From: Psychrobacter sp. P11G3
Lineage (GTDB): Bacteria; Pseudomonadota; Gammaproteobacteria; Pseudomonadales; Moraxellaceae
Length of the DNA stretch: 64,000 nucleotides
Direction: 5' to 3'
NCBI RefSeq assembly: GCF_001435845.1
Contig: NZ_CM003596.1
Coordinates: 124,001 to 188,000, forward strand
Shown: piece after piece, positions 23,320-37,043 of the stretch
How positions within the stretch are numbered: position 1 is the first letter of the stretch
Layout of the letters: each line of letters begins with the position of its first letter
Made by a program: the position numbers and the translations under genes
The notes under the pieces: model-generated
Database searches by the model: none
What the model was told of the DNA's origin: nothing
Seen by the model: only the letters and a program-made list of their open reading frames with translations

Positions 23320-24465
23320 ATGATAAAAGTACTAAGTATATTTGGGACGCGTCCTGAAGCAATTAAAATGGCCCCTGTTGTAAAAGCATTAGATAGTAAT
23401 CCAAATATTGAGTCCTTAGTTTGCGTAACGGCTCAACATCGTGAAATGCTTGATCAAGTATTGTCATTATTTGAAATAATTCCAGACTATGATTTAGATA
23501 TCATGAAGTCAGGACAAAGCTTAACGCAAGCTAGTTCCAGAATGTTGCTTGCCCTTGAACCAGTATTGAAGGAATGCCAGCCTGACTTAGTACTTGTTCA
23601 TGGTGATACTTCAACAACATTATGCGGAGCACAGGCCGCTTTTTATCAGCAAATCCCTATCGGACATGTTGAGTCGGGTCTACGTACTTATGATATTTAC
23701 TCTCCTTGGCCGGAAGAAGCTAATAGACAGCTTACAAGTATAATTACTAAGTTACATTTTGCACCAACTAAAGCCGCTGCACAGCATTTATATGATGAAC
23801 ACAATAACCCTGATTATATATATACCACTGGTAATACAGTAGTCGATGCTTTGTTAGAAGTTAAGAACAAGCTTGAAAATAATGAAGCTTTACGCAATGA
23901 ATTAAAACTTAAGTTTTCTGAGTTGGATTTTACTAAACGTCGCGTTCTGATTACTGGTCATCGTCGTGAGAACTTTGGTGATGGGTTTGAGTCGATTTGC
24001 CAAGCGATACAAGAGTTAGCGCAAAAGTACCCAGATTATGAATTTGTTTACCCTGTGCATTTAAACCCTAACGTTAAAGAGCCCGTAAATAGGTTATTAA
24101 AAAACCTTGGCAACGTCAAATTGATCGAACCTCAAGACTATCTACCTTTTGTATACTTGATGAGTACTAGCCATATAATTTTAACCGACTCAGGTGGCAT
24201 CCAAGAAGAAGCACCTTCTCTTGGTATTCCAGTATTAGTAATGCGTTCAACTACTGAAAGGCAGGAAGCTGTAGAGGCAGGAACGGTGAAACTAGTAGGG
24301 ACACATGCACCTACTATTGTAGCTGAAGTGAGCAGTTTGATTGAAAACGAGGCTATTTATCTCAAAATGAGTCAAGCACATAATCCTTATGGTGATGGAC
24401 AAGCATCACAACGCATCACAGAAACTATTGTTAATTTTTTCAGTCAAGAAAAAATTTCGAAATAA
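23320..24465 (+). CDS. wecB: UDP-N-acetylglucosamine 2-epimerase (non-hydrolysing)
   Basis: Converts UDP-GlcNAc to UDP-ManNAc in the cytoplasm. The 381-residue protein carries the family landmarks FGTRPEAIKMAPVVKAL, HGDTSTTLCGA, HVESGLRTYDIYSPWPEEA, TGHRRENFGDGF and LTDSGGIQEEAPSLG. It is 40 bp after galE and 30 bp before wecC, and the WecB-WecC pair makes UDP-ManNAcA. An AGAGAA precedes the ATG at reasonable spacing. Confidence 0.95.
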   Translation: MIKVLSIFGTRPEAIKMAPVVKALDSNPNIESLVCVTAQHREMLDQVLSLFEIIPDYDLDIMKSGQSLTQASSRMLLALEPVLKECQPDLVLVHGDTSTTLCGAQAAFYQQIPIGHVESGLRTYDIYSPWPEEANRQLTSIITKLHFAPTKAAAQHLYDEHNNPDYIYTTGNTVVDALLEVKNKLENNEALRNELKLKFSELDFTKRRVLITGHRRENFGDGFESICQAIQELAQKYPDYEFVYPVHLNPNVKEPVNRLLKNLGNVKLIEPQDYLPFVYLMSTSHIILTDSGGIQEEAPSLGIPVLVMRSTTERQEAVEAGTVKLVGTHAPTIVAEVSSLIENEAIYLKMSQAHNPYGDGQASQRITETIVNFFSQEKISK

Positions 24466-24495: not shown

Positions 24496-25740
24496 ATGAA
24501 AAATATTTGTGTTTTTGGTCTAGGTTATATTGGTTTACCAACAGCAGCGATGTTCGCTCATCATGGAGCAAATGTAATAGGGGTTGATGTTAACCAGCAT
24601 GCAGTCGATACGATAAACCAAGGCAAAATACATATCGTAGAGCCAGGTTTAGAAGCCATCGTCAAGCAAGCCGTGGATAAAGGCAATCTTAAGGCTAGCC
24701 TCACTCCTGTACATTCAGATGCTTACCTTATTGCAGTTCCTACACCTTTCAAAGGTCAAGATCATGAGCCTGATCTTTCTTACATTCAAGCTGTTAGCAA
24801 AGCACTAGCCCCACTACTACAAAAGGGTGATGTAGTAATATTAGAGTCCACATCCCCAGTAGGTGCTACTGAAAAAATGGTTGAATGGCTCGCTGAAGAA
24901 CGTGCCGATTTAAGCTTTCCTAAATATCATGAGCCTGATAACGAAGCGGATATCTTTGTAGCTTATTGTCCCGAGCGTGTATTACCAGGCAAAGTAGTTG
25001 AAGAGCTAATTTCGAATGATCGCATTATTGGTGGTATGACTAAAGAGTCGACCAGAAAAGCTCAAGAAGTTTATCGCATTTTTGTAGAGGGTGACTTACT
25101 AGCAACTAACTCTCGTACCGCTGAAATGGCAAAACTGACTGAAAATGCCTCTCGCGATGTAAGCATTGCTTTTGCTAATGAGTTGTCCATTATTTCAGAT
25201 AAGCTAGATATTAATGTTTGGGAGCTAATTGAGCTGGCTAATCATCATCCACGTGTCAATATTCTACAGCCTGGTGCTGGAGTAGGTGGTCATTGTATCG
25301 CTGTGGACCCATGGTTTATCGTTAATCAAAACCCTGATGAAGCTAAAATAATCCGTGCGGCTCGTGAGATTAATGACAATAAGCCTAATTGGGTAATAAG
25401 TAAGATCAATGCTGAAATAGATACGCTAAAGTCTGAGAACATGGCTAGACCGAAAGTGGCGTTATTAGGCTTAGCATTTAAACCAAATATTGATGACTTA
25501 CGTGAGAGTCCAGCTGTTAGCATTGCTAAAAATATGCTTGAGTTGAATAGTGCTGAGGTTTTATTGGTTGAACCAAATATAAAGCAGTTACCTGAGAAGC
25601 TGGCTACAGGTAATTTAGTTTCTTTAGAGAGTGCTTTAGAGCAAGCTGATATATTAGTGGTATTAGTCGCTCATGATGAGTTTGAAAAAAATCAATTATC
25701 TAGCAATGCTCGTCTAATCAATGTTGTTAGTGATATTTGA
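24496..25740 (+). CDS. wecC: UDP-N-acetyl-D-mannosamine dehydrogenase
   Basis: Oxidises UDP-ManNAc twice to UDP-ManNAcA using NAD+. The N-terminal NAD motif is VFGLGYIGLPTAAMFAHHG, followed by VPTPFKGQDHEPDLSY, and the catalytic Cys is in GAGVGGHCIAVDPWF near residue 265. The C-terminal domain has LGLAFKPNIDDLRESPA. The 414-residue length is typical. With wecB upstream it indicates that ManNAcA is a component of the surface glycan. The next gene starts 98 bp later in more AT-rich DNA. Confidence 0.95.
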   Translation: MKNICVFGLGYIGLPTAAMFAHHGANVIGVDVNQHAVDTINQGKIHIVEPGLEAIVKQAVDKGNLKASLTPVHSDAYLIAVPTPFKGQDHEPDLSYIQAVSKALAPLLQKGDVVILESTSPVGATEKMVEWLAEERADLSFPKYHEPDNEADIFVAYCPERVLPGKVVEELISNDRIIGGMTKESTRKAQEVYRIFVEGDLLATNSRTAEMAKLTENASRDVSIAFANELSIISDKLDINVWELIELANHHPRVNILQPGAGVGGHCIAVDPWFIVNQNPDEAKIIRAAREINDNKPNWVISKINAEIDTLKSENMARPKVALLGLAFKPNIDDLRESPAVSIAKNMLELNSAEVLLVEPNIKQLPEKLATGNLVSLESALEQADILVVLVAHDEFEKNQLSSNARLINVVSDI

Positions 25741-25838: not shown

Positions 25839-28800
25839 ATGAAAAAGTTAAAAAAATTATTTAAGAGTTATGCTAAAACCAGCTGGACTAATCTATTAAC
25901 TATTAAACATAATATTGATGCTAATAAATTGGGTGTATTTAATCATAATGTCAAAATAGAAAATCACTCTCTAAAAGCTACTCACAGTGAGAAGCATCCT
26001 CATGATATTTTGACTAATAAAGAAGATGCTAAGCTAAAGGTAGATAATCAAAGTAATGGGGAATACTCTCAACATTCCAAGAGTATCCAGAGATCAAAAT
26101 TTGGAATGCTTGTACATGAAGGTGCCCTTGAACTCGAGCCGTTTGAAAAGAATATTATTTGTTATGAGTTAATAGTAAAGTCTGGACAGTTATTAGTCAT
26201 AAAAGTAGCTTCTCGGTACCTAAATATGAAAGGTATTATTGATCGCAAAGCAGTTCTAACGATTACTAGTTATGATGAGCGCGGTAAAGAAATAGATATT
26301 CCATGTGGCAAAATGGTTAAATCTGAAAACCTACGTGTCTATTTTAAGTATATTCCTTCAACTAACAATAACGTCCAAGAGCTACATAGCTTTGTAGTAC
26401 CTGATGGGGTTAGTTACATTCAACTTGGTCTAAGTGCTTTCAATACGGTTGAAGAGCAACAAGTATTAGTTACTAGCCTTAGTGTCAAGCCAAAAACTGC
26501 AGTATATCAAAGTGATAGTTTTCAAGAACTGAGTAATAAAGAAGAAAAAATACAGACGTCTGTAGCACCTTTGATCACTCGTATCGATAAAGCACAAAGT
26601 ATGGCTAATAAATCAAATAATGATAAAAAATCAAATAACGAGCAAGACTCTAAAAAAAATAGTGCTATTGAACAAGTTGAATTTGGAATGCTTATACATG
26701 GAGGTGCTATAGAGCTAACTCAAGAAAGTCCTCTCTGGTATGAACTACCAGTAAAAGCTGGACAGTTATTAGTGATAAAAGTAGCTTCTCAATACTTAAA
26801 TATGAAAGATATTATTAGTCGTAAAGCAGTGTTACTGATCAATAGCTATGACGAAGCTGGCAAAGAAGTTGACGTAGCATGTGGACGGATGGTCAGATCA
26901 GAAGCGTTGAAAGCTTATTTTAAATATATACCATCTACTCATAATCATATAAAAGAACTACATACCTTTGTTGTACCTGATGGAGTGAGTCAAATTCGCC
27001 TTGGTCTCAAGGCTTTTAATATAGAAACAGGACAACAAGTCTTTGTTGAAAGTTTTAATATTGAGCCGAAAGTTCAAGACTATCAAAATGATACCTATAA
27101 TGATTTAAGTGTAATTAAAAAAGAGACAAAGCCACATTCTAGTATCGAAAAATCGAATGAAGCGCGACTCTCTCAAGAAGTCACTGACATTAAAAAATCG
27201 CAATTGGGGATGCTCATACATAGAGATGCTATTCAGCTAACTCAAGAAAGTCCTCTTTGGTATGAACTACCAGTAAAAGCTGGACAGTTATTAGTGATAA
27301 AAGTAGCTTCTCAGTATTCAAATATGAAAGAGATTATTGATCGCAAAGCAGTTTTATTGATTAATAGCTACGATGAGTATGGTCAGAAAGTTGATGTGGC
27401 ATGTGGAAAGATGGCAAAGTCTGAAGCTTTAAAAGCCTATTTTAAATATCTACCCTCTACTAATGACAATATAATAGAGCTGCATACCTTTATTGTACCT
27501 GATGGAGTGAGTCAAATTCACCTTGGTCTCAGTGCTTTCAATATTGTAGCAGAACAACAGATCTTTGTTAAAAACCTTAGTATTGAGACAAAATCGAATA
27601 ATTCTCAAGCTACTAAATTTTTAACACCAAGTATTCAAGCTGCAGAGATTAGTATGCTTGGCTGGCCTGAAATTCCAATAAATGATAAGCCTTGTATCAT
27701 TGGTATTATGGATGAGTTCACTACTGGTTGTTTTGAGCAAGATGTGAACCTGATTCAACCTCGACCGGATAATTGGTTTGCGTTAGCAGAAAAATATAAG
27801 CCAGTACTATTCTTCATTGAAAGTGCATGGCAGGGTAACTATGGTAGTTGGCAATACCGTGTTGGGAAATATGCTAATAAACCAGGTCATGAAATTGATC
27901 ATATTTGCCAGTATGCTCGCGATAAAGGCATACCTACATTGTTCTGGAACAAAGAAGACCCTGTTCATCATGAAAAATTTATGTGTAGTGCGAAATTAGT
28001 AGATCATATTTATACGACTGATGCTAATATGAAGACTTCTTATACTGCAAAAACTGGTAATGTCAACGTACATCCTCTACCTTTTGCAGCACAGCCTGCT
28101 CTTCATAAACCAGCAGTATTATCAGGTCGAAAACCACGTGCATGCTTTGCTGGTAGCTGGTATGGCAACCGTCACGCTGAAAGAGGTCAAGCTATGAGTT
28201 GGCTACTAAAGGCAGCTCATAACTATGGATTAGATATATATGACCGTAATTACGATAATGGGACGTTTCCATTTCCAGAAGAGTATCAAGCAGGTATTAA
28301 AGGTAGCTTACCCTACAAGGAGCTTTGTGAGGAGTATAACCGCTATCGAATATTCTTAAACGTCAATTCAGTTACTGACTCACCAACTATGTTTTCGCGT
28401 CGTGTTTTTGAGCTCATGGCGAGTGGTACGCCGATAGTAAGTACATATGCTAAAGGTATTGAAGCTTTATTTGACTCAGATGCTGTCTGGCTAGTAAATA
28501 GCCAAGAAGAAGCTGATGTGGCTATTCAAACTTTAATGACTGATGATGTGGAGTGGCGTAGAAGAAGCTTAGCAGGTATTCGTGAAGTGTTTTCAAAACA
28601 TACCTATGCTCACCGTCTTAATAGTATTTTTTCAGATATGAATTTAGAAAGTCACATAGAAGTAGATCCTAATACTGTACTCTTCGCCAAAGCTAATAAT
28701 CTAATAGAGATGAATCTACTCAAAGAATTCGCCAAAAATCAAAGTTACCAGAAATTTTTCTTGATTATTGAATATGCACAAAGCGAAATCATGATAGAAG

Positions 28801-29183
28801 AAAAGCTGGCTGAAAATATTATTCTCATAAATCCAGATGCAAGCAAAGCCTGGACTATCAATAACCAAGATAGTTATTCTATCGCAGGTTGGATAACACC
28901 ACATAACTACTATGGAGAGCACTACCTCCGTGATCTTATCAACGCTAGTATTTATGAGCCCAATGCCAAAGGTTGGGCTAAAGCACTTGGAGAGGACATA
29001 TTTGGTTATGGTGCCCCAGCACTATTAAGTGGCTCACTTTGGAAAAAAGATGAGTTCATTAGCATTTATATTGATCTTCACGCTGACGATACTATCACAG
29101 TCACTAAGCTATATTTAGCCGATAGCGAAGAGTTCAAGGAAAATACGAGCTTAGAGTATCATCAGTTGAGAGGAATAGAGTAA
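25839..29183 (+). CDS. Large glycosyltransferase with three N-terminal repeat modules and a CgeB/DUF3880-like domain
   Basis: This 1114-residue protein has four visible parts. A basic N-terminus (1-84) is followed by three repeats of about 135 residues (85-219, 278-411, 452-585), each beginning FGML.H..A or LGML.H..A and containing GQLLVIKVAS, YFKY.PST and VPDGVS.I.LGL. A transferase domain follows (about 604-940) with FFIESAWQGNYGSW, PTLFWNKEDPVH, ACFAGSWYGNRHAERGQ and NSVTDSPTMFSRRVFELMAS, matching the CgeB/DUF3880 GT type. A C-terminal region of about 165 residues I do not recognise. The stop overlaps the next ATG by one base. No signal peptide is seen. The repeats look like beta-sandwich modules, perhaps for glycan binding, which is inference. 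Confidence 0.85.
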   Translation: MKKLKKLFKSYAKTSWTNLLTIKHNIDANKLGVFNHNVKIENHSLKATHSEKHPHDILTNKEDAKLKVDNQSNGEYSQHSKSIQRSKFGMLVHEGALELEPFEKNIICYELIVKSGQLLVIKVASRYLNMKGIIDRKAVLTITSYDERGKEIDIPCGKMVKSENLRVYFKYIPSTNNNVQELHSFVVPDGVSYIQLGLSAFNTVEEQQVLVTSLSVKPKTAVYQSDSFQELSNKEEKIQTSVAPLITRIDKAQSMANKSNNDKKSNNEQDSKKNSAIEQVEFGMLIHGGAIELTQESPLWYELPVKAGQLLVIKVASQYLNMKDIISRKAVLLINSYDEAGKEVDVACGRMVRSEALKAYFKYIPSTHNHIKELHTFVVPDGVSQIRLGLKAFNIETGQQVFVESFNIEPKVQDYQNDTYNDLSVIKKETKPHSSIEKSNEARLSQEVTDIKKSQLGMLIHRDAIQLTQESPLWYELPVKAGQLLVIKVASQYSNMKEIIDRKAVLLINSYDEYGQKVDVACGKMAKSEALKAYFKYLPSTNDNIIELHTFIVPDGVSQIHLGLSAFNIVAEQQIFVKNLSIETKSNNSQATKFLTPSIQAAEISMLGWPEIPINDKPCIIGIMDEFTTGCFEQDVNLIQPRPDNWFALAEKYKPVLFFIESAWQGNYGSWQYRVGKYANKPGHEIDHICQYARDKGIPTLFWNKEDPVHHEKFMCSAKLVDHIYTTDANMKTSYTAKTGNVNVHPLPFAAQPALHKPAVLSGRKPRACFAGSWYGNRHAERGQAMSWLLKAAHNYGLDIYDRNYDNGTFPFPEEYQAGIKGSLPYKELCEEYNRYRIFLNVNSVTDSPTMFSRRVFELMASGTPIVSTYAKGIEALFDSDAVWLVNSQEEADVAIQTLMTDDVEWRRRSLAGIREVFSKHTYAHRLNSIFSDMNLESHIEVDPNTVLFAKANNLIEMNLLKEFAKNQSYQKFFLIIEYAQSEIMIEEKLAENIILINPDASKAWTINNQDSYSIAGWITPHNYYGEHYLRDLINASIYEPNAKGWAKALGEDIFGYGAPALLSGSLWKKDEFISIYIDLHADDTITVTKLYLADSEEFKENTSLEYHQLRGIE
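26091..27593 (+). repeat. Three in-frame repeats of about 400 bp encoding an unrecognised module
   Basis: Units lie at about 26091-26496, 26670-27071 and 27192-27593, joined by charged, low-complexity linkers. Units 2 and 3 share a 79-bp block (26713-26791 and 27235-27313) with a single mismatch, so they duplicated or exchanged sequence recently. Unit 1 is more diverged. Confidence 0.9.
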
Positions 29184-31321
29184 TGTTAAAAAGAGTATTA
29201 ATATGTGCCAATCCTGATCTCAACTATATTGATGGATCTTCTATTTGGGCACAGACCATCGCTTTAGCAACTGCGGCCACTACTAAAGCACAAGTGGATT
29301 TCATCGCAAAAAGTACACCAGAACGTGATGAGTTGTTTGCACCACTGAAAACTGAAAAACATATTAATATTATTGATGGTTCTAAACATCAGTATTGGCA
29401 AGGTAAGAGCTACAAACGCCTGTCTTTACCTATGATGGCTGATCTTGCAGTTGCCCTAAATCATATCAATACCTACGATGTTATTATTGTCCGAGGTCTG
29501 GAAATTGCTACTCAGCTGCTAAATTTTCCTGAGATACTCTCTAAGTGTTGGATGTATTTAACCGATATACCGCAGAGCATATCAGATTATGATGATGAAT
29601 TGCGTTGCACTATGCAGAATATCGGTCAAGGTTGCCAAAAGATATTATGTCAAACAGAAGGTTTCAAAACTCTATGGCAAGCATTAGTCCCTAGTCTCAT
29701 GGAAGACAAGTTCAGTCTATATACTCCAGTTATACCAGATATCCCTGATGATTTGTCTTTGATAATTGAACGTCCTATACGTGCCATATATGCTGGAAAA
29801 TTTAAGGCAGACTGGATGACCATGGAAATGGTCAATGCCTGGTCTGCAGTTCATCATAAGGTTGATTTTAGCGAACTTATAATGATCGGAGATAAAATTC
29901 ACAATGAACCAAATCAATCTAATTATCAACAAGATATGCGGAATGCTTTAGAGGATACAGAAGGGTTGCTTTGGCTTGGTGCCCAATCTCGAGAGACAGT
30001 ACAGCAAGAGCTTCAACAGGCAAGAATAGGACTGTCTTGGCGCTCAGAAAGTATGAACGATACTGTAGAGTATTCTACTAAAATCCTAGAGTATGGTGGC
30101 GCAGGCTGTGCGGCTATTCTTAATCGCAATGCGTTGCATGAGCAGCTATTAGGGGTAGACTATCCGTTATTCGCTAATAGTGCTGAGGAGTTTTCTCGTC
30201 AGCTGATTCGAGCATTAAAAAATCCTGATATTACTCAGCAGGCAGCGAATACTTTACAACAACTGGCGAAGCGTCATACTTTCTCCACACGTGTGAATGA
30301 CATACAGTACTGGTTAGCACAAGCACCTGATGTATTTAAACCTGCAAAGAAGACACGCATACTAGTAGCAGGGCATGACCTCAAGTTTTTTACTTTATTA
30401 CAAAGTAAGCTAGAAGCTACTGGAAACTTTGAGTTTTTCATTGATCAGTGGCAAGGGCATGATAAGCATGATGAAGCACAAAGTCGTAAGTTATTAGAGC
30501 AAGTAGATATCATATTCTGTGAATGGTGTTTGGGAAATCTGAAATGGTACTCTAATAATAAAATGCCACATCAGCGCCTTATAGGTCGTTTTCATGCACA
30601 AGAAGCACGTGTACCTTATATGGGAGAAGCGAACTGGGATGCCATTGATCATATTGGATTTGTTAGTGAGCATATTCGTAAGCAAGCGTTAGATGTATTT
30701 GAGGGTTTTCCTACAGACAAGACATCAGTAATACCAAATTATTTAGATATCAATAAGTTTACTCCTAAGAAAAAAACTGGTGAAGCGCGTTATACGTTAG
30801 GAATGATAGGAGTAGCTCCTCAGAGTAAGCGTTTAGATCGTGCGCTTGATTTATTAGAGACATTACTTGAAAAAGATAGTAGATATTGTTTGCGAGTGAA
30901 AGGCAAAAACCCGCTTGACTACAATTGGTTACTACAGCGTAAAGACGAATTGGATTATTATCAGCAAGTTTTCAAACGTATTAATAGTAATTCTAAGCTG
31001 AGACATAAAGTAATATTTGACCCACCAGGCGACGATGTGAATGAGTGGTTTACTATGGTAGGCTTTATTCTCTCTCCATCTGATTTTGAGTCGTTCCATA
31101 TGGCGATAGGTGAAGGCATACTGACAGGTGCTGTACCTATTATTTGGAACTGGGAAGGTGCTGCAGAAATTTGGGGTAAAGAAAACGTAATATTCTCAAT
31201 AAAAGAAGCTAAAAATGTTGTCTTATCTGAACTTCAAGCAGATTCTACTATTCATTGTATTTCAGAAAAACACTCTTCCACCAGCATTGTTTCAAAGTGG
31301 ATAGATGTAATAAGCATCTAA
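29183..31321 (+). CDS. Double GT-B glycosyltransferase (two tandem modules)
   Basis: The 712-residue protein appears to consist of two glycosyltransferase modules. Residues 1 to about 385 start RVLICANPDLNYIDGSSIW and include AIYAGKFKADWM and YSTKILEYGGAGCAAILNR, typical of the GT4-like nucleotide-binding half. Residues from about 389 restart with TRILVAGHDLKFF, then FCEWCLGNLKWYS, VIPNYLDINKFTP, LGMIGVAPQSKRLDRALD and SPSDFESFHMAIGEG. It is paralogous to the gene at 33820-35988, with the same split near residue 390. It overlaps the previous stop by one base, so translation is coupled. Two modules could add two different sugars or act as a polymerase; this cannot be decided here. Confidence 0.8.
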   Translation: MLKRVLICANPDLNYIDGSSIWAQTIALATAATTKAQVDFIAKSTPERDELFAPLKTEKHINIIDGSKHQYWQGKSYKRLSLPMMADLAVALNHINTYDVIIVRGLEIATQLLNFPEILSKCWMYLTDIPQSISDYDDELRCTMQNIGQGCQKILCQTEGFKTLWQALVPSLMEDKFSLYTPVIPDIPDDLSLIIERPIRAIYAGKFKADWMTMEMVNAWSAVHHKVDFSELIMIGDKIHNEPNQSNYQQDMRNALEDTEGLLWLGAQSRETVQQELQQARIGLSWRSESMNDTVEYSTKILEYGGAGCAAILNRNALHEQLLGVDYPLFANSAEEFSRQLIRALKNPDITQQAANTLQQLAKRHTFSTRVNDIQYWLAQAPDVFKPAKKTRILVAGHDLKFFTLLQSKLEATGNFEFFIDQWQGHDKHDEAQSRKLLEQVDIIFCEWCLGNLKWYSNNKMPHQRLIGRFHAQEARVPYMGEANWDAIDHIGFVSEHIRKQALDVFEGFPTDKTSVIPNYLDINKFTPKKKTGEARYTLGMIGVAPQSKRLDRALDLLETLLEKDSRYCLRVKGKNPLDYNWLLQRKDELDYYQQVFKRINSNSKLRHKVIFDPPGDDVNEWFTMVGFILSPSDFESFHMAIGEGILTGAVPIIWNWEGAAEIWGKENVIFSIKEAKNVVLSELQADSTIHCISEKHSSTSIVSKWIDVISI

Positions 31322-31384
31322 TCTTATAGTATGTTATGTGCTATCAAGTAACAGATTATATAAATAACTATAGAGGATAATAAA

Positions 31385-32614
31385 ATGAATAAAAATAAAA
31401 AGATAGTAGGGGTCACTTTTTTCAGTGTATTACAAGGACTTTCTAACAAGTATGTAATTCATAATAAGGATTATAAAGACTACGTTGATGATCTGTTCGA
31501 AGAAAAAAGGTTAGATTTAAAAACAGAAATATTTTTTAAAATAAGTCTTCCTTCATTACAGAGTATGGATAAGCAGGGATGTTCATACAATCACTATATA
31601 TTGTACTCAAAACAGCTGCCAGAAAAATATAAGAGGAATATAATAGAATCTATAAACAAGTATTCATTCCTTAGAGGGGTTGAAATTGATGATTACATAG
31701 ATTTCGACATTAAAAGTATACTTAATGAGGACGTAGACAAAGGAGAAGTCTTTGCTTATTTTGGATTAGACGATGATGATTTAATTTCAATTGATTACTT
31801 ACAAAAGATAAAAGATTATGTGAATAAAGAATTTATAGGTTTTAATATATGTTTATCAAAAGGTTTCTCTGGCTATTATGATGGTGAAGTATCTAATGTT
31901 CGAGAGTTAAGGTTTCCATTCATAAATATTGGACAAGCTAGAATTTGTAATAGAGAAAGTAATGGTAATATTTATATACCCAATAAAGGTAGCCATATGA
32001 GAACTGATGAAAAATGTCCTACTGTAATTGATTCAACTTCTCCAACATTTTTCTGGCTACGCCATCATATGCAGGATACATTTAGTACAGCTAATAAATC
32101 TGAGATAAAAACTAAAATAAATAGAGATTTAGATGAACATAACTATCCAAAATCCTCAATTTTAGCTAAGTTTCCAATATTAAAAGAATATATGATACCT
32201 ACGAATTTATTTTTAAAATCAACGCGTAAAAATATTCTATTAGACAACAGAAAAGCTGTTGAAAAAATTCCTTTAAGCATATCATCTGAAAAAAATATAG
32301 ATGGTCATCTGGTTGTCAAATACTCTTTAAGTAATTTAGATGGTATTTCTCGTAGACAAGCTTTAGCAGTTTTCGAACTATCAAAGAGCCTAAGTGAAAA
32401 TGAGGCTAACTTAGCAGGTTTAACTAAATCTAAAGTAGGTTATTACAGGTATTTCAATACTGCTGGTAGTAATATAAATGGAACATTTTCATTGTATTTA
32501 CCAGAAGGTGTTAATTTGACTAGTATTAGTCTTATGAAGTGGGCTGATGAAAGTGTTTTATTAGATACTATAGAAGTTTTTGAAGCTAATAATAACATAA
32601 TAAATCATGTATAA
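31385..32614 (+). CDS. Putative rhamnosyltransferase-like glycosyltransferase with C-terminal accessory module
   Basis: This 409-residue product resembles the putative rhamnosyl transferase family. It has HYILYSKQLPEKYKRN, then the acidic cluster AYFGLDDDDLISIDYLQ near residue 127 (a DxD-type metal and nucleotide-sugar site), then GFNICLSKGFSGYYDG. The last 110 residues or so (293-402) look like a separate domain with LVVKYSL, ALAVFELS, YYRYFNTAGS and LPEGVNLTSISL. Its order of features matches the repeats of the 1114-residue transferase (LVIK, KAVL, YFKYIPST, VPDGVSQIRL). The DNA is markedly AT-rich. ATG follows GAGGATAATAAA. Confidence 0.72.
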   Translation: MNKNKKIVGVTFFSVLQGLSNKYVIHNKDYKDYVDDLFEEKRLDLKTEIFFKISLPSLQSMDKQGCSYNHYILYSKQLPEKYKRNIIESINKYSFLRGVEIDDYIDFDIKSILNEDVDKGEVFAYFGLDDDDLISIDYLQKIKDYVNKEFIGFNICLSKGFSGYYDGEVSNVRELRFPFINIGQARICNRESNGNIYIPNKGSHMRTDEKCPTVIDSTSPTFFWLRHHMQDTFSTANKSEIKTKINRDLDEHNYPKSSILAKFPILKEYMIPTNLFLKSTRKNILLDNRKAVEKIPLSISSEKNIDGHLVVKYSLSNLDGISRRQALAVFELSKSLSENEANLAGLTKSKVGYYRYFNTAGSNINGTFSLYLPEGVNLTSISLMKWADESVLLDTIEVFEANNNIINHV

Positions 32615-33049: not shown

Positions 33050-33727
33050 ATGAGGACAATAAAAGATGAGCAAGATCTAAAAAAATACATTTATAACTTA
33101 GAAAGAGAAAATGAATCACTTAAAAAATCTCATAGCTATAGATTAGGTAAGTCATTAATAAATGTAAAGGATAATCTACTAGAAAAGAATTTCAAAACCC
33201 TAGTACCTGCTTCTAAAAAAATATTAGAAGCAATAAAGAAAGCTGATAAAAAACCAAACCATATCGCTGTCGATGTCACCAGAATGGGTGGTTCAGTGAT
33301 TGAGAGTAACACCAATACGGTACTCAATATAAATTCAAATGATATTCAAGACAGTATTCAACACTACTTTGTCCCTAAGATTAAATATAGAAAAGTAGTA
33401 GGCGTATTTTCTACAGATATTGGCATAAGTGATGAACGTGCAGATATATTACTGTCCCCTGATAACTATAAAGAAGTCATTGCTAAATCAAATATTGATT
33501 TTCTAGTATTTGACTTGCAAGCTTTAAAAGATAACACTCTTTGGTTTGCTTTCGGTACTCATGATTCAATATTTTTACTTAGAAGCGTTGTGCTCAGTAT
33601 TAAAAGCCAGCCCTCTATTGTCAAAGTCTTAATAGAGAATGAAGACATTACTTTATTTCCTTTACTATCCAAACTAAAAGATCTCAATTTCTTTGATGTG
33701 ATCCAAAGCACCAGTTTTGTAGCTTAA
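33050..33727 (+). CDS. Coiled-coil protein with DUF3880-like half domain, possible truncated glycosyltransferase
   Basis: Residues 1-45 are a short coiled coil ending in ESLKKSHSYRLGKSLI, a linker type common beside bacterial glycosyltransferase domains. Residues from about 115 (KVVGVFSTDIGISDERAD, IDFLVFDLQALKDNTLWF, VLIENEDITLFPLL) resemble the N-terminal half of the CgeB/DUF3880 proteins in this locus (VALISDELTA, FILVESAWCGHKDKW, VFWNKEDGAHF). The second, nucleotide-binding half is missing, so at 225 residues it may be truncated or an accessory subunit. ATG is well placed after GGAAGAGGTATGC. A weak 9-bp hairpin (33732-33763) follows. Confidence 0.6.
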   Translation: MRTIKDEQDLKKYIYNLERENESLKKSHSYRLGKSLINVKDNLLEKNFKTLVPASKKILEAIKKADKKPNHIAVDVTRMGGSVIESNTNTVLNINSNDIQDSIQHYFVPKIKYRKVVGVFSTDIGISDERADILLSPDNYKEVIAKSNIDFLVFDLQALKDNTLWFAFGTHDSIFLLRSVVLSIKSQPSIVKVLIENEDITLFPLLSKLKDLNFFDVIQSTSFVA

Positions 33728-33819: not shown

Positions 33820-35988
33820 ATGAGTAATATTGCAGTTTTTGGTGATATATCGACCAACGGAATCGATGGTTCGTCCATCTGGTTACAGTCTATCTGTAAT
33901 GTGTTTGCCTCAGAGGACCATAATGTCTTTCTAATATTAAGAGACAAACCAATATTATCTAGTATAACGGATGGTCTTGATAGTACAGTAAGTGTTATAA
34001 ACCCTTGGCAGCAAAGCTATAGTGAGATAAGCAACGAAAATGCGATATCTCCTGAAGAGTTAATTACCTTATTGACAGCGATTGATCAACAAGAAATGCT
34101 TGATCATATCATTATGCGTGCCCCTAGATTTTTAGAAGAGCTTCATAGATATACTATAAAAGAAAAATCTTATGATTTGATTAATAAAGTAGATGCTTAT
34201 TTTGCAAAGCTGAACATATTCAATGACGATTATGACTTATCTGTACTATCAACCATTCGTTTCGCTATTAATAGATTGATAGTTCAGACTGAACAGATGC
34301 GTGATTATGCAGAGCAATTATTCCCTTTACTGGTAGGTAAAGTAATTGTTCTAAACCCTATGATCCCAAAAACGTATGATATCGACATTAATAAAGTCAT
34401 TCGCAAAATAGAGTGCAAATCTGTCATCTATGCAGGCAAGCTAGATACTAATTATCTAATAGAGGACTATATAGATAATGCACCGTTGGTAGGCACATTA
34501 GGGTTTGATGTTTCCTTAGTGGGTTCTAAATTCAATACAGTGAAGTCAGATAAACAGTTTAGAAATCGAGTCGAAAATAAGATTGAGAATAGTGATATAG
34601 AGTGGATTAAAGTATTAAACAGAGAACAGACGATACAAAAAGTATCAGAATCAACATTTTTAATCTCTATTAGAAATAAGCATTTTGACTCTGACAATGA
34701 GATATCTACCAAACTCCTAGAGAGCATAGCGGCAGGCACTTTACCGATTATTAATAAAAATAACGTTAATATCGGAATCGTTGGAGAAAACTATCCTTTA
34801 TTTGCAAATTCGTTTTCTGAGCTTTCTTCTACAATTATGAACTTCTCTTTGACAGAAGATAACTATAGAAGAGTACTTAGCAACGTTCAGACTCGAGTCG
34901 ATAAATATACATTCAAAAACATATATGACCGACAACTTAAAAAATTCTACGAGAAGAGTGTAGTCACTACAAGCTCGTCAGTTTTTTTAGAGAAAAAGAG
35001 AGTACTGATAGCGTCTCATGATAATAAGTTTTTAAACCAAGTTCTATTAGAGCTAAAAAATAATAAGCAAATTGAGATTAGATGTGATAACTGGAAAACC
35101 ACTTCGCAACATAATCAGAAAGTTTCTGAACAGTTATTGGATTGGGCAGATATTATTTTGTGTGAATGGGCAGTTGGCCCAGCAGTATTCTATAGTCAAA
35201 ATAAAAAGGAACATCAAAAGTTACTAGTTAGATTACATCGCTTTGAGATTACTACCGAGCGACCATATGAAATTAGAGCAGAAAACGTTGATAGCTTTAT
35301 AGTAGTCAGTGACTATATTAAGAACTTTTGCATAAAAAACTATCATTGGCATGAAGATATGATAACAGTTATGCCCCAGTTTGCTGATACTCATCACTTT
35401 GATCGCAGCAAAGTCTCTGGTTATGAATACAACTTAGGGCTGCTAGGTTGTATTCCAAGTCTAAAGAGGTTGGATAGAAGTTTAGATATATTAGAGGAGC
35501 TAAGGAAAGTAGATAAAAGGTATGTTTTGTATATCAAATCAAAGATGCCTTGGGAAGTACCATTTATCTGGAACAAAGAAGAAGAGCGAGCTTATTACTC
35601 TAAGCAACTAAATAGAATCGAGAGTTCCCAGTTATTAAGGGGTGCCGTAGTGTTTGACGATTATGGTAATGATGTTGCTGTATGGTTTAGAAAGATTGGT
35701 TGGATTTTATCGACTAGTGATATAGAGGGATGCCATACTGCTGTGGCAGAAGCAATGAGTTCTGGTAGTCAAGCAGCTGTATTTGACTGGCCAGGAGCGA
35801 AAGATGTTTATGCGCTAAATAAGATTTTTACTTCTTCTGTATCTGCGGCACGCCATATTAATAATCATAGTGAGTTTAGTAAAGGTCAGATACAATCACA
35901 AAGAGAATATTGTTTTAACAAGTTTGATATCAGTAAAACTTTGAGCTTTTACAATAATTTTATTTTTAATGAAAATATAAAATATTAA
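33820..35988 (+). CDS. Double GT-B glycosyltransferase, paralogue of the 29183-31321 gene
   Basis: The 722-residue protein has the same two-module plan: the N-terminal module has GDISTNGIDGSSIWLQS, VIYAGKLDTNYL and STKLLESIAAGTLPIINK. The second module starts near residue 391 with RVLIASHDNKFLNQ and has CEWAVGPAVFYSQNKKEHQK, LGLLGCIPSLKRLDRSLDIL and STSDIEGCHTAVAEAMSSG. Similarity to its paralogue is clear but moderate, so the duplication is old or they were acquired separately. The proteins may add different sugars. No signal peptide or membrane helices are visible, so it acts on the cytoplasmic side. Confidence 0.78.
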   Translation: MSNIAVFGDISTNGIDGSSIWLQSICNVFASEDHNVFLILRDKPILSSITDGLDSTVSVINPWQQSYSEISNENAISPEELITLLTAIDQQEMLDHIIMRAPRFLEELHRYTIKEKSYDLINKVDAYFAKLNIFNDDYDLSVLSTIRFAINRLIVQTEQMRDYAEQLFPLLVGKVIVLNPMIPKTYDIDINKVIRKIECKSVIYAGKLDTNYLIEDYIDNAPLVGTLGFDVSLVGSKFNTVKSDKQFRNRVENKIENSDIEWIKVLNREQTIQKVSESTFLISIRNKHFDSDNEISTKLLESIAAGTLPIINKNNVNIGIVGENYPLFANSFSELSSTIMNFSLTEDNYRRVLSNVQTRVDKYTFKNIYDRQLKKFYEKSVVTTSSSVFLEKKRVLIASHDNKFLNQVLLELKNNKQIEIRCDNWKTTSQHNQKVSEQLLDWADIILCEWAVGPAVFYSQNKKEHQKLLVRLHRFEITTERPYEIRAENVDSFIVVSDYIKNFCIKNYHWHEDMITVMPQFADTHHFDRSKVSGYEYNLGLLGCIPSLKRLDRSLDILEELRKVDKRYVLYIKSKMPWEVPFIWNKEEERAYYSKQLNRIESSQLLRGAVVFDDYGNDVAVWFRKIGWILSTSDIEGCHTAVAEAMSSGSQAAVFDWPGAKDVYALNKIFTSSVSAARHINNHSEFSKGQIQSQREYCFNKFDISKTLSFYNNFIFNENIKY

Positions 35989-36110: not shown

Positions 36111-37043
36111 ATGAACTGTGATATTAATAGCATATTTTATAATGGAAAAAGCCTTTCTGTAGAAGTTTATAAGAATAGTGAAGTAGATTTTGCATTTTAT
36201 GTATTAATGGGTGATAAGAAATTAGATTCTAAGTGGTACTCTTTTAATGATATTTCTATTCTAAATATACCTTTAGAACCGAAAATTACTTATTCTCTAA
36301 TATTATTTTTTCGCCCAAGATCCGAAAAAACTAAAGAAGATGAGAAAATAGTTAGGAAATTCTTTTTCAAAATCGATACTAATGGTAACTCTAGTATTAT
36401 AAACGAGGAAGTACTTCATGAAACTGAGTTTTTTAAAATTTCAGAATATAATCAGGATTCTGATACGACATTTATAACGTTTAATTCGGCTCATACGGAT
36501 AAATCTTCTGATCCATTTGGAGGTGGATTTATTCTATCGCAAGGCTGGAACTTAATTAGCGTACGCAAACATAATAGAAATCCTTATCAAGAATTAAGTT
36601 TACAAAATTTCAAAGATATTGTAGGTCCAAAAGTATCTCAGAAGAAAGTTTTTACTTATGGAACTAGCTTGGGAGGCTACAGTAGTATATATTACGGTGG
36701 TGTAGTCAATGCTACAATAATTGCTGGTGCACCCAAATTATCTTTAATAACAAATTCCAATATTCGATATAGACATATTGAATATAAACATATTTCTATT
36801 AAGGATACTATAAAATCCATTAATCCTGTTTATATTATATATGATCCTCTTGTCAGTGGGGATGTGAATTTCATAAAAAAACATATACTGTCTGGTTACC
36901 CCCAGGCTAAATTTTTACCTGTTAAGGGCGGTACTCATTTGGTCATAAAGAAATTGCTTGAGAAAGGTATAATAAAAGATACTATTATAGATTTAGTAAA
37001 TAACAATATTTTTGAAGCTACGAATAGAATTATTACATCTTGA
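36111..37043 (+). CDS. Asp2-like alpha/beta hydrolase in the polysaccharide locus
   Basis: The nucleophile elbow FTYGTSLGGYSSIYYGG places a Ser near residue 184 in a GxSxGG context, followed by IIAGAPK. IYDPLVSGD and GGTHLVIKK supply plausible acid and His residues of a catalytic triad. The N-terminal 110 residues or so are a separate beta-rich region. This layout resembles the alpha/beta-hydrolase part of Asp2-type accessory-secretion proteins and related capsule-locus hydrolases; a sugar O-acetyl esterase or transferase role is inference. There is no signal peptide. The DNA is very AT-rich. ATG follows TGAGGTATTGT. The 253 bp after it are AT-rich and hold nothing recognisable. Confidence 0.65.
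   Translation: MNCDINSIFYNGKSLSVEVYKNSEVDFAFYVLMGDKKLDSKWYSFNDISILNIPLEPKITYSLILFFRPRSEKTKEDEKIVRKFFFKIDTNGNSSIINEEVLHETEFFKISEYNQDSDTTFITFNSAHTDKSSDPFGGGFILSQGWNLISVRKHNRNPYQELSLQNFKDIVGPKVSQKKVFTYGTSLGGYSSIYYGGVVNATIIAGAPKLSLITNSNIRYRHIEYKHISIKDTIKSINPVYIIYDPLVSGDVNFIKKHILSGYPQAKFLPVKGGTHLVIKKLLEKGIIKDTIIDLVNNNIFEATNRIITS

Follow-up and report, generated by a model that had tools for sequence, protein, structure and literature searches.

Two different glycosyltransferases (GTs) encoded close together in Psychrobacter sp. P11G3 appear to carry the same accessory module at opposite ends of the protein. Is it one module, and what would it be for? The genes lie in a stretch of 64,000 nucleotides (contig NZ_CM003596.1, positions 124,001 to 188,000), called the window here, and coordinates refer to it unless another locus is named. 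Both genes are open reading frames (ORFs) where a preliminary description of this DNA had placed them and are members of a single co-directional gene run (Table 1). The first protein, p1, contains a CgeB-type glycosyltransferase domain (PF13524, residues 808 to 930, E 2.9e-20), the sole Pfam family above cut-off in it. The other, p3, matches the putative rhamnosyltransferase family PF11316 over residues 6 to 234 (E 2.1e-15), with no further Pfam family above cut-off; no NCBIfam family passes its cut-off in either protein. The module is N-terminal in the PF13524 protein and C-terminal in the PF11316 protein, the arrangement that had been described.

The three repeats of p1

The 1114-residue p1 had been reported to carry three N-terminal repeats of about 135 residues. 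A profile built from the three copies was used to place the repeat boundaries. It locates all three, ahead of the GT domain, with the named motifs at the expected sites: GQLLVIKVAS starts at residues 116, 308, and 482, YFKY lies at residues 168, 360, and 534, and VPDGVS lies at residues 187, 379, and 553. The repeats are 61 to 72% identical to one another. A profile search of p1-related proteins recovered 109 module copies with a domain E below 1e-20 in 77 proteins, with one copy in 55 of them, two in 12, and three in 10. Near-invariant positions of the module include K329, S354, F361, Y363, T367, F377, P380, and F393 (p1 numbering). In a tree of 37 copies, the second and third copies from the lineage of the window cluster (support, 100/98), which suggests that the p1 array has undergone reshuffling in comparison with related arrays. 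Among named relatives, a Psychrobacter protein (P0018) is the closest to p1.

Kinship of the p3 C terminus with the repeats

The C terminus of p3 is conserved in its family, as 11 of 12 homologues align over 96 to 100% of p3; the twelfth, P0012 (302 residues), covers 71% of the query and was excluded from the p3-family alignments. The motifs LVVKYSL (residue 309), YYRYF (residue 353), and LPEGVN (residue 372) had been proposed to repeat the features of the p1 module in the same order and spacing. The order held, as did the spacing of the last two motifs, which is 19 residues in both proteins, but the first gap is off by five to eight residues. In a direct BLASTP comparison, the best match between the p1 repeats and p3 had an E of 0.004. 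The hhalign match of the module to the p3 C terminus was colinear across residues 305 to 398, with an E of 0.0067 and a probability of about 6%, versus an E of 0.71 for the remainder of p3. When the 109-copy profile was run on 167 frames of the window, the frame starting at 31385 ranked second to p1 (E 0.0014; following frame, 0.25), with a score that equals an E of 0.85 at a search space of 100,000. Taken alone, the direct comparison is only suggestive of homology, and it would be compatible with two unrelated beta-sandwiches that have come to look alike by convergence. Because it is too weak to settle the matter, more distant relatives were brought in.

These intermediates link p1 and p3 at E values of 3e-5 to 5e-7. 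Group B, a set of 21 copies from, e.g., Psychrobacter proteins and one Microbulbifer protein, matched the p1-type copies at E 3.6e-16 and the p3 C terminus at E 7.4e-5 (hhalign). A combined A+B profile matched the p3 C terminus at E 3.2e-5 with a score of 34.2, which was reached by none of 100 column-shuffled controls (mean, 11.9; standard deviation, 2.3) nor by the reversed profile (11.0). Four copies borne by SGNH-like proteins of related strains matched the A set at E 5.2e-7, the p3 C terminus at E 1.1e-5, and group B alone at E 0.011. The p1 copies and the p3 C terminus also have R-[KQ]-A, S, [FY]-[KR]-Y, and P in common, in register with the predicted strands. Given these bridges and the failure of the shuffled and reversed controls, we consider convergence highly improbable despite the weak direct match. 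The sequence comparisons through intermediates firmly support homology of the p1 repeats and the p3 C terminus. The profile match proposed at the outset as a check is thus significant by way of the intermediates, and the same module can be assigned to both proteins.

In searches of 174 ORFs from the window and related loci (of which loci L008 and L040 come from one genome), the p3-family C-terminus profile matched 13 ORFs at E<=0.1, all of them also matches of the A profile, and its best reversed-sequence score was 0.64. The A profile found 15 ORFs below E 0.01, including p3 and the SGNH ORFs, followed by the next at 0.29, with a best reversed value of 0.14. The group-B profile alone gave p3 an E of 0.13, and p3 and most SGNH copies were not separated from the background of the 174 ORFs. 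The A1 alignment was made from the second copy of the window and 25 of the 109; A3 comprised 6 copies, and of the first 8 copies in group B, 7 entered A5. Since the ABC profile contains p3, it was not counted as evidence for p3. The ABCD profile includes the L036 copy, so that its match to the same protein (L045) is built in, and reliance was placed on the scores of the A, C, and ABC profiles.

Predicted fold and search for a known family

The AlphaFold model of p1 residues 279 to 411 has nine strands with a predicted local distance difference test score (pLDDT) of 95.8. The p3 C-terminal module is likewise modeled with nine strands, with pLDDT values of 72 to 90 in ten-residue blocks from 271 to 400. 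The nine predicted strands of p1 copy 2 and of the p3 C terminus are the same, in the same order, and in register; the lack of structural similarity that had been named as a ground for rejecting the shared module was not seen. The two modules are thus predicted to fold alike. The model is a beta-sandwich within the range of 100 to 150 residues typical of carbohydrate-binding modules (CBMs). CBMs make up a good part of its listed structural neighbors, where the CBM families (CBM16, 36, 22, 4, and others) are tied with unrelated folds.

Neither Pfam nor NCBIfam has a family above cut-off over the module regions of p1 or p3, which bears out the earlier remark that no family could be named. When 26 module copies were compared with Pfam, the best match was that of one copy to PF21309 (C5_CUB; E 5.1e-4). 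The module profile had no match among PDB sequences at E<=1, and the p3 family had a single one (E 0.83) that looks like chance. A literature search, run without subscription papers and preprints, found no published description of the module or its architecture. We propose from these models a new family of small, CBM-like beta-sandwiches, represented by the module and placed on biosynthetic enzymes of one polysaccharide locus; for the whole reading, with the tethering role discussed below, we hold a slight balance of belief in its favor.

The module on other enzymes and its distribution

Beyond PF13524 and PF11316, the module is found with partners of GT4 type (P0035 and P0028) and GT2 type (P0034) and with multi-GT proteins (P0030 and P0023). 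The same chromosomal locus of other Psychrobacter genomes encodes SGNH/GDSL-like proteins with the module at their C terminus (Table 1). The GDSL matches of four such proteins are weak; all four fall under the PF13472 cut-off, and one (L040, 9752-10699) exceeds that of PF00657. The module is a discrete noncatalytic unit joined to GT2, GT4, CgeB-type, rhamnosyl-type, and SGNH-like partners. What appears to be new, as judged from sequence, is that in relatives the module is joined to GT4- and GT2-type transferases and to SGNH/GDSL-like esterases from the same locus. A transposase-like ORF, recognized by eye, lies directly downstream of the SGNH-module gene in G791 (L036, 2410-3162) and is a possible vehicle for moving such genes.

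The variety of partners bears on whether the module, rather than being an independent tether, belongs to the active site of each enzyme and positions the acceptor there. In p3 and the SGNH-like enzymes it does follow shortly after the catalytic region. On unrelated catalytic folds, however, it can be N-terminal, in the middle, or C-terminal, and the p1 modules form an array with polar linkers between them, as judged by eye. We regard an active-site role of this kind as improbable.

The module is rare: at E<=0.001 it turned up in 3 of 390 genomes at the level of the order and in 5 of 105 at that of the genus. The p3-type C terminus was found in 1 of 390 order genomes and the group-B profile in 1 of 369 class genomes, in both cases the window's own genome. 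In that genome, the three p1 copies and the p3 copy are the sole matches of the module profiles at E<=0.001. When genome contigs were scanned for a pattern from six closer sequences, five loci were returned. Homologs of p2, the GT encoded between p1 and p3, occur in 8 of 105 genus genomes (E<=1e-40), and all five module-positive genus genomes fall among these eight (hypergeometric 5.8e-7, uncorrected for kinship). A sixth module-positive genome, G378, has an SGNH copy that was seen by reading the neighborhood and was missed by the genus-wide profile search. No module was seen in the neighborhood stretches examined in G815 and G822.

Table 1. Features of the module locus in the window and module-bearing SGNH/GDSL-like genes of related loci
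Feature	Position	Strand	Basis
wecB-like gene, conserved upstream of module GTs	23320..24465	+	synteny
wecC-like gene, immediately upstream of module GT	24496..25740	+	synteny
p1, 1114 residues: three modules and CgeB-type glycosyltransferase	25839..29183	+	ORF; PF13524
Module copy 1, p1 residues 85-226	26091..26516	+	profile match
Module copy 2, p1 residues 279-418	26673..27092	+	profile match; residues 279-411 modeled
Module copy 3, p1 residues 453-592	27195..27614	+	profile match
CgeB-type GT domain (PF13524) of p1	28260..28628	+	Pfam
p2, 712 residues, two GT4-type stretches	29183..31321	+	Pfam
p3, 409 residues: putative rhamnosyltransferase and C-terminal module	31385..32614	+	ORF; PF11316
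C-terminal module of p3, residues 274-402, diverged	32204..32590	+	hhalign; AlphaFold nine strands
SGNH/GDSL-like protein with C-terminal module	L045 17736-18908		
SGNH/GDSL-like protein with C-terminal module	L049 17418-18596		
Two SGNH/GDSL-like genes with C-terminal module, G811	L040 3827-5002 and 9752-10699		

Gene neighborhood

The genes around the module GTs recur. Homologs of the wecB-like and wecC-like genes, which we take to encode a UDP-GlcNAc 2-epimerase and a UDP-ManNAc dehydrogenase, lie immediately 5' of the module GT in seven loci (the window, G811, G840, G395, L005, L006, and L007). The two genes predict a ManNAcA-containing polymer. The L006 genome has a second module gene, in L004, which is not immediately preceded by wecC. 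A p2 homolog is found downstream of the module GT in the window, G811, G840, G395, L005, and L007 and also in L004, and the module profiles have no match in p2 itself. The p2 gene has a paralog at 33820-35988; the two proteins, of 712 and 722 residues, are 28% identical over 697 residues.

This recurring neighborhood bears on whether the module is a protein-protein docking or oligomerization domain that gathers the locus enzymes in a complex without touching sugar directly. No scaffold partner restricted to module-bearing loci was recognized, and the usual neighbor, p2, also has homologs in G815 and G822, two genomes that showed no module in the stretches examined. The share of CBMs among the listed structural neighbors likewise speaks against docking, to which we give a minor though real chance.

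Several further genes of these loci were recorded. The 225-residue protein at 33050-33727 has no family above cut-off in Pfam or NCBIfam and an N terminus that looks coiled-coil-like by eye; it is conserved at 77% in G811, adjoining the homolog of the 33820 gene. The 310-residue protein at 36111-37043 is unmatched in Pfam and NCBIfam at E<=0.1 and has homologs in related loci; judging from a motif, it may be an Asp2-kind alpha/beta hydrolase. In Halomonas, the homolog forms part of a 655-residue protein with an additional GDSL match (L004, 1724-3688). The wecC homologs in G815 and G822 and the 36111 homolog in G815 are split or short in comparison with related genes (L047, 12059-12550 and 15970-16479; L048, 11828-13074), which could be due to decay or to sequencing error. 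Heparinase II/III-like and sulfotransferase genes lie close to the module GT in Halomonas (L004, 14137-16490), and a heparinase-like gene is present in an uncultured Psychrobacter (L008, 14117-15586); genes of these kinds near a module GT hint at a sulfated or uronate-rich polymer.

Proposed link to capsule export

The gene run of the window holds GTs and nucleotide-sugar genes, and no flippase, polysaccharide polymerase, or exporter family was matched by any of the 20 proteins scanned. Elsewhere in the same genome, at about 500.8 to 509.1 kb of C1 (within L022, 496000-515000), there is a compact kpsM-T-E-D-C-S set with no transferase gene among its ORFs, about 340 kb away from the window GT genes, which lie at about 146 to 162 kb. 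KpsC/S and KpsD were assigned by Pfam above cut-off. KpsM, KpsE, and KpsS are best NCBIfam matches under the cut-offs of those models, and KpsT was named from its position and a generic exporter-ATPase match. We infer that this set and the gene run of the window are the two halves of a single ATP-binding cassette (ABC)-dependent capsule system.

In the Halomonas locus L006, genes upstream of wecB match kpsD, kpsM, kpsT, and kpsE of the P11G3 genome, and in L007 there are kpsT and kpsE matches upstream of wecB with one further ORF between. No kps gene was recognized in the stretch of L005 examined. PF05159 capsule proteins are present in all eight genomes with a p2-type GT, versus 57 of 105 overall (P = 0.006). 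A second possible destination of the window transferases in the same genome, a Wza/Wzc/WbpM/Wzx-type locus at about 945 kb (L023), was rejected, as it seemingly has GT genes of its own and no module; its export gene was named by search and its remaining genes by eye from their sequences. Flagellin glycosylation was dropped as a role, the genome being without a flagellin match.

Comparison with known systems

In predicted fold, in size, and in occurring as tandem copies on multidomain carbohydrate-active enzymes, the module resembles the beta-sandwich CBMs (CBM16, CBM36, CBM22, CBM4, and CBM35). It differs from them in having no match by sequence to any PDB chain at E<=1 and in being attached to enzymes of biosynthesis, which look cytoplasmic in that no signal peptide is visible by eye. 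Asp3, from the accessory Sec glycosylation complex, differs in being a separate protein, and the lack of a PDB sequence match applies here as well. The periplasmic AlgX, an SGNH alginate O-acetyltransferase, has a C-terminal CBM, but the present module is also common to GTs. The CBM on AlgX is one precedent (PMC9487903). Others are a CBM in Wzt, an O-antigen transporter ATPase, where it binds the terminal residue, and a CBM-like domain in ORF6 of Klebsiella pneumoniae O7 (PMC11231755). As in those proteins, glycan recognition would here be built into the pathway of an ABC-exported polymer; there, however, the CBM is on the transporter or on one terminator, whereas here copies are on several enzymes. 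To judge from the sequences, one module family across several transferase classes and esterase-like enzymes of one locus is what is distinctive here.

Proposed function

Chains of ABC-dependent capsules are made in the cytosol on a lipid (PMC11041684). A shared sugar-binding module would make sense on a cytosolic chain that is visited by several enzymes. The ATPase of the kps-set transporter (223 residues) has no module match and thus no such domain, and chain recognition in this pathway would therefore sit on the enzymes. We hypothesize, with somewhat more confidence than doubt, that this is a glycan-binding module that tethers several enzymes to one nascent polymer. In this view the locus would cooperate with the capsule exporter encoded by the kps genes, an ABC transporter; the polymer would be built on a lipid in the cytoplasm, and its nascent chain would be bound by the module. 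Each enzyme (the CgeB-type GT with three copies, the rhamnosyltransferase with one, and the SGNH esterase of related strains with one) would be held at the acceptor. This would raise processivity and ensure that one chain is both elongated and decorated before it is exported. Of the two roles first suggested for the module, the binding of glycan acceptors and the tethering of a multienzyme complex, we favor the former in view of the CBM-like fold, the copies on SGNH, GT2, and GT4 proteins, and the capsule-export context.

A more specific and more speculative version is that the module serves as a pathway-specific address tag, i.e., a glycan-reading domain that has been copied between unrelated catalytic folds within one capsule locus and brings the enzymes of elongation and decoration to a shared nascent polymer in the cytoplasm. 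If this were true, gain, loss, or doubling of the tag would rewire which modifications the capsule receives. Little is understood of how the multienzyme factories of capsules hold several transferases and tailoring enzymes to a single chain, and a binding-type module common to elongating and decorating enzymes would be a directly testable handle on chain length and decoration. The module profile could also assign uncharacterized enzymes of such loci to the same polymer, and the module may be a source of glycan probes.
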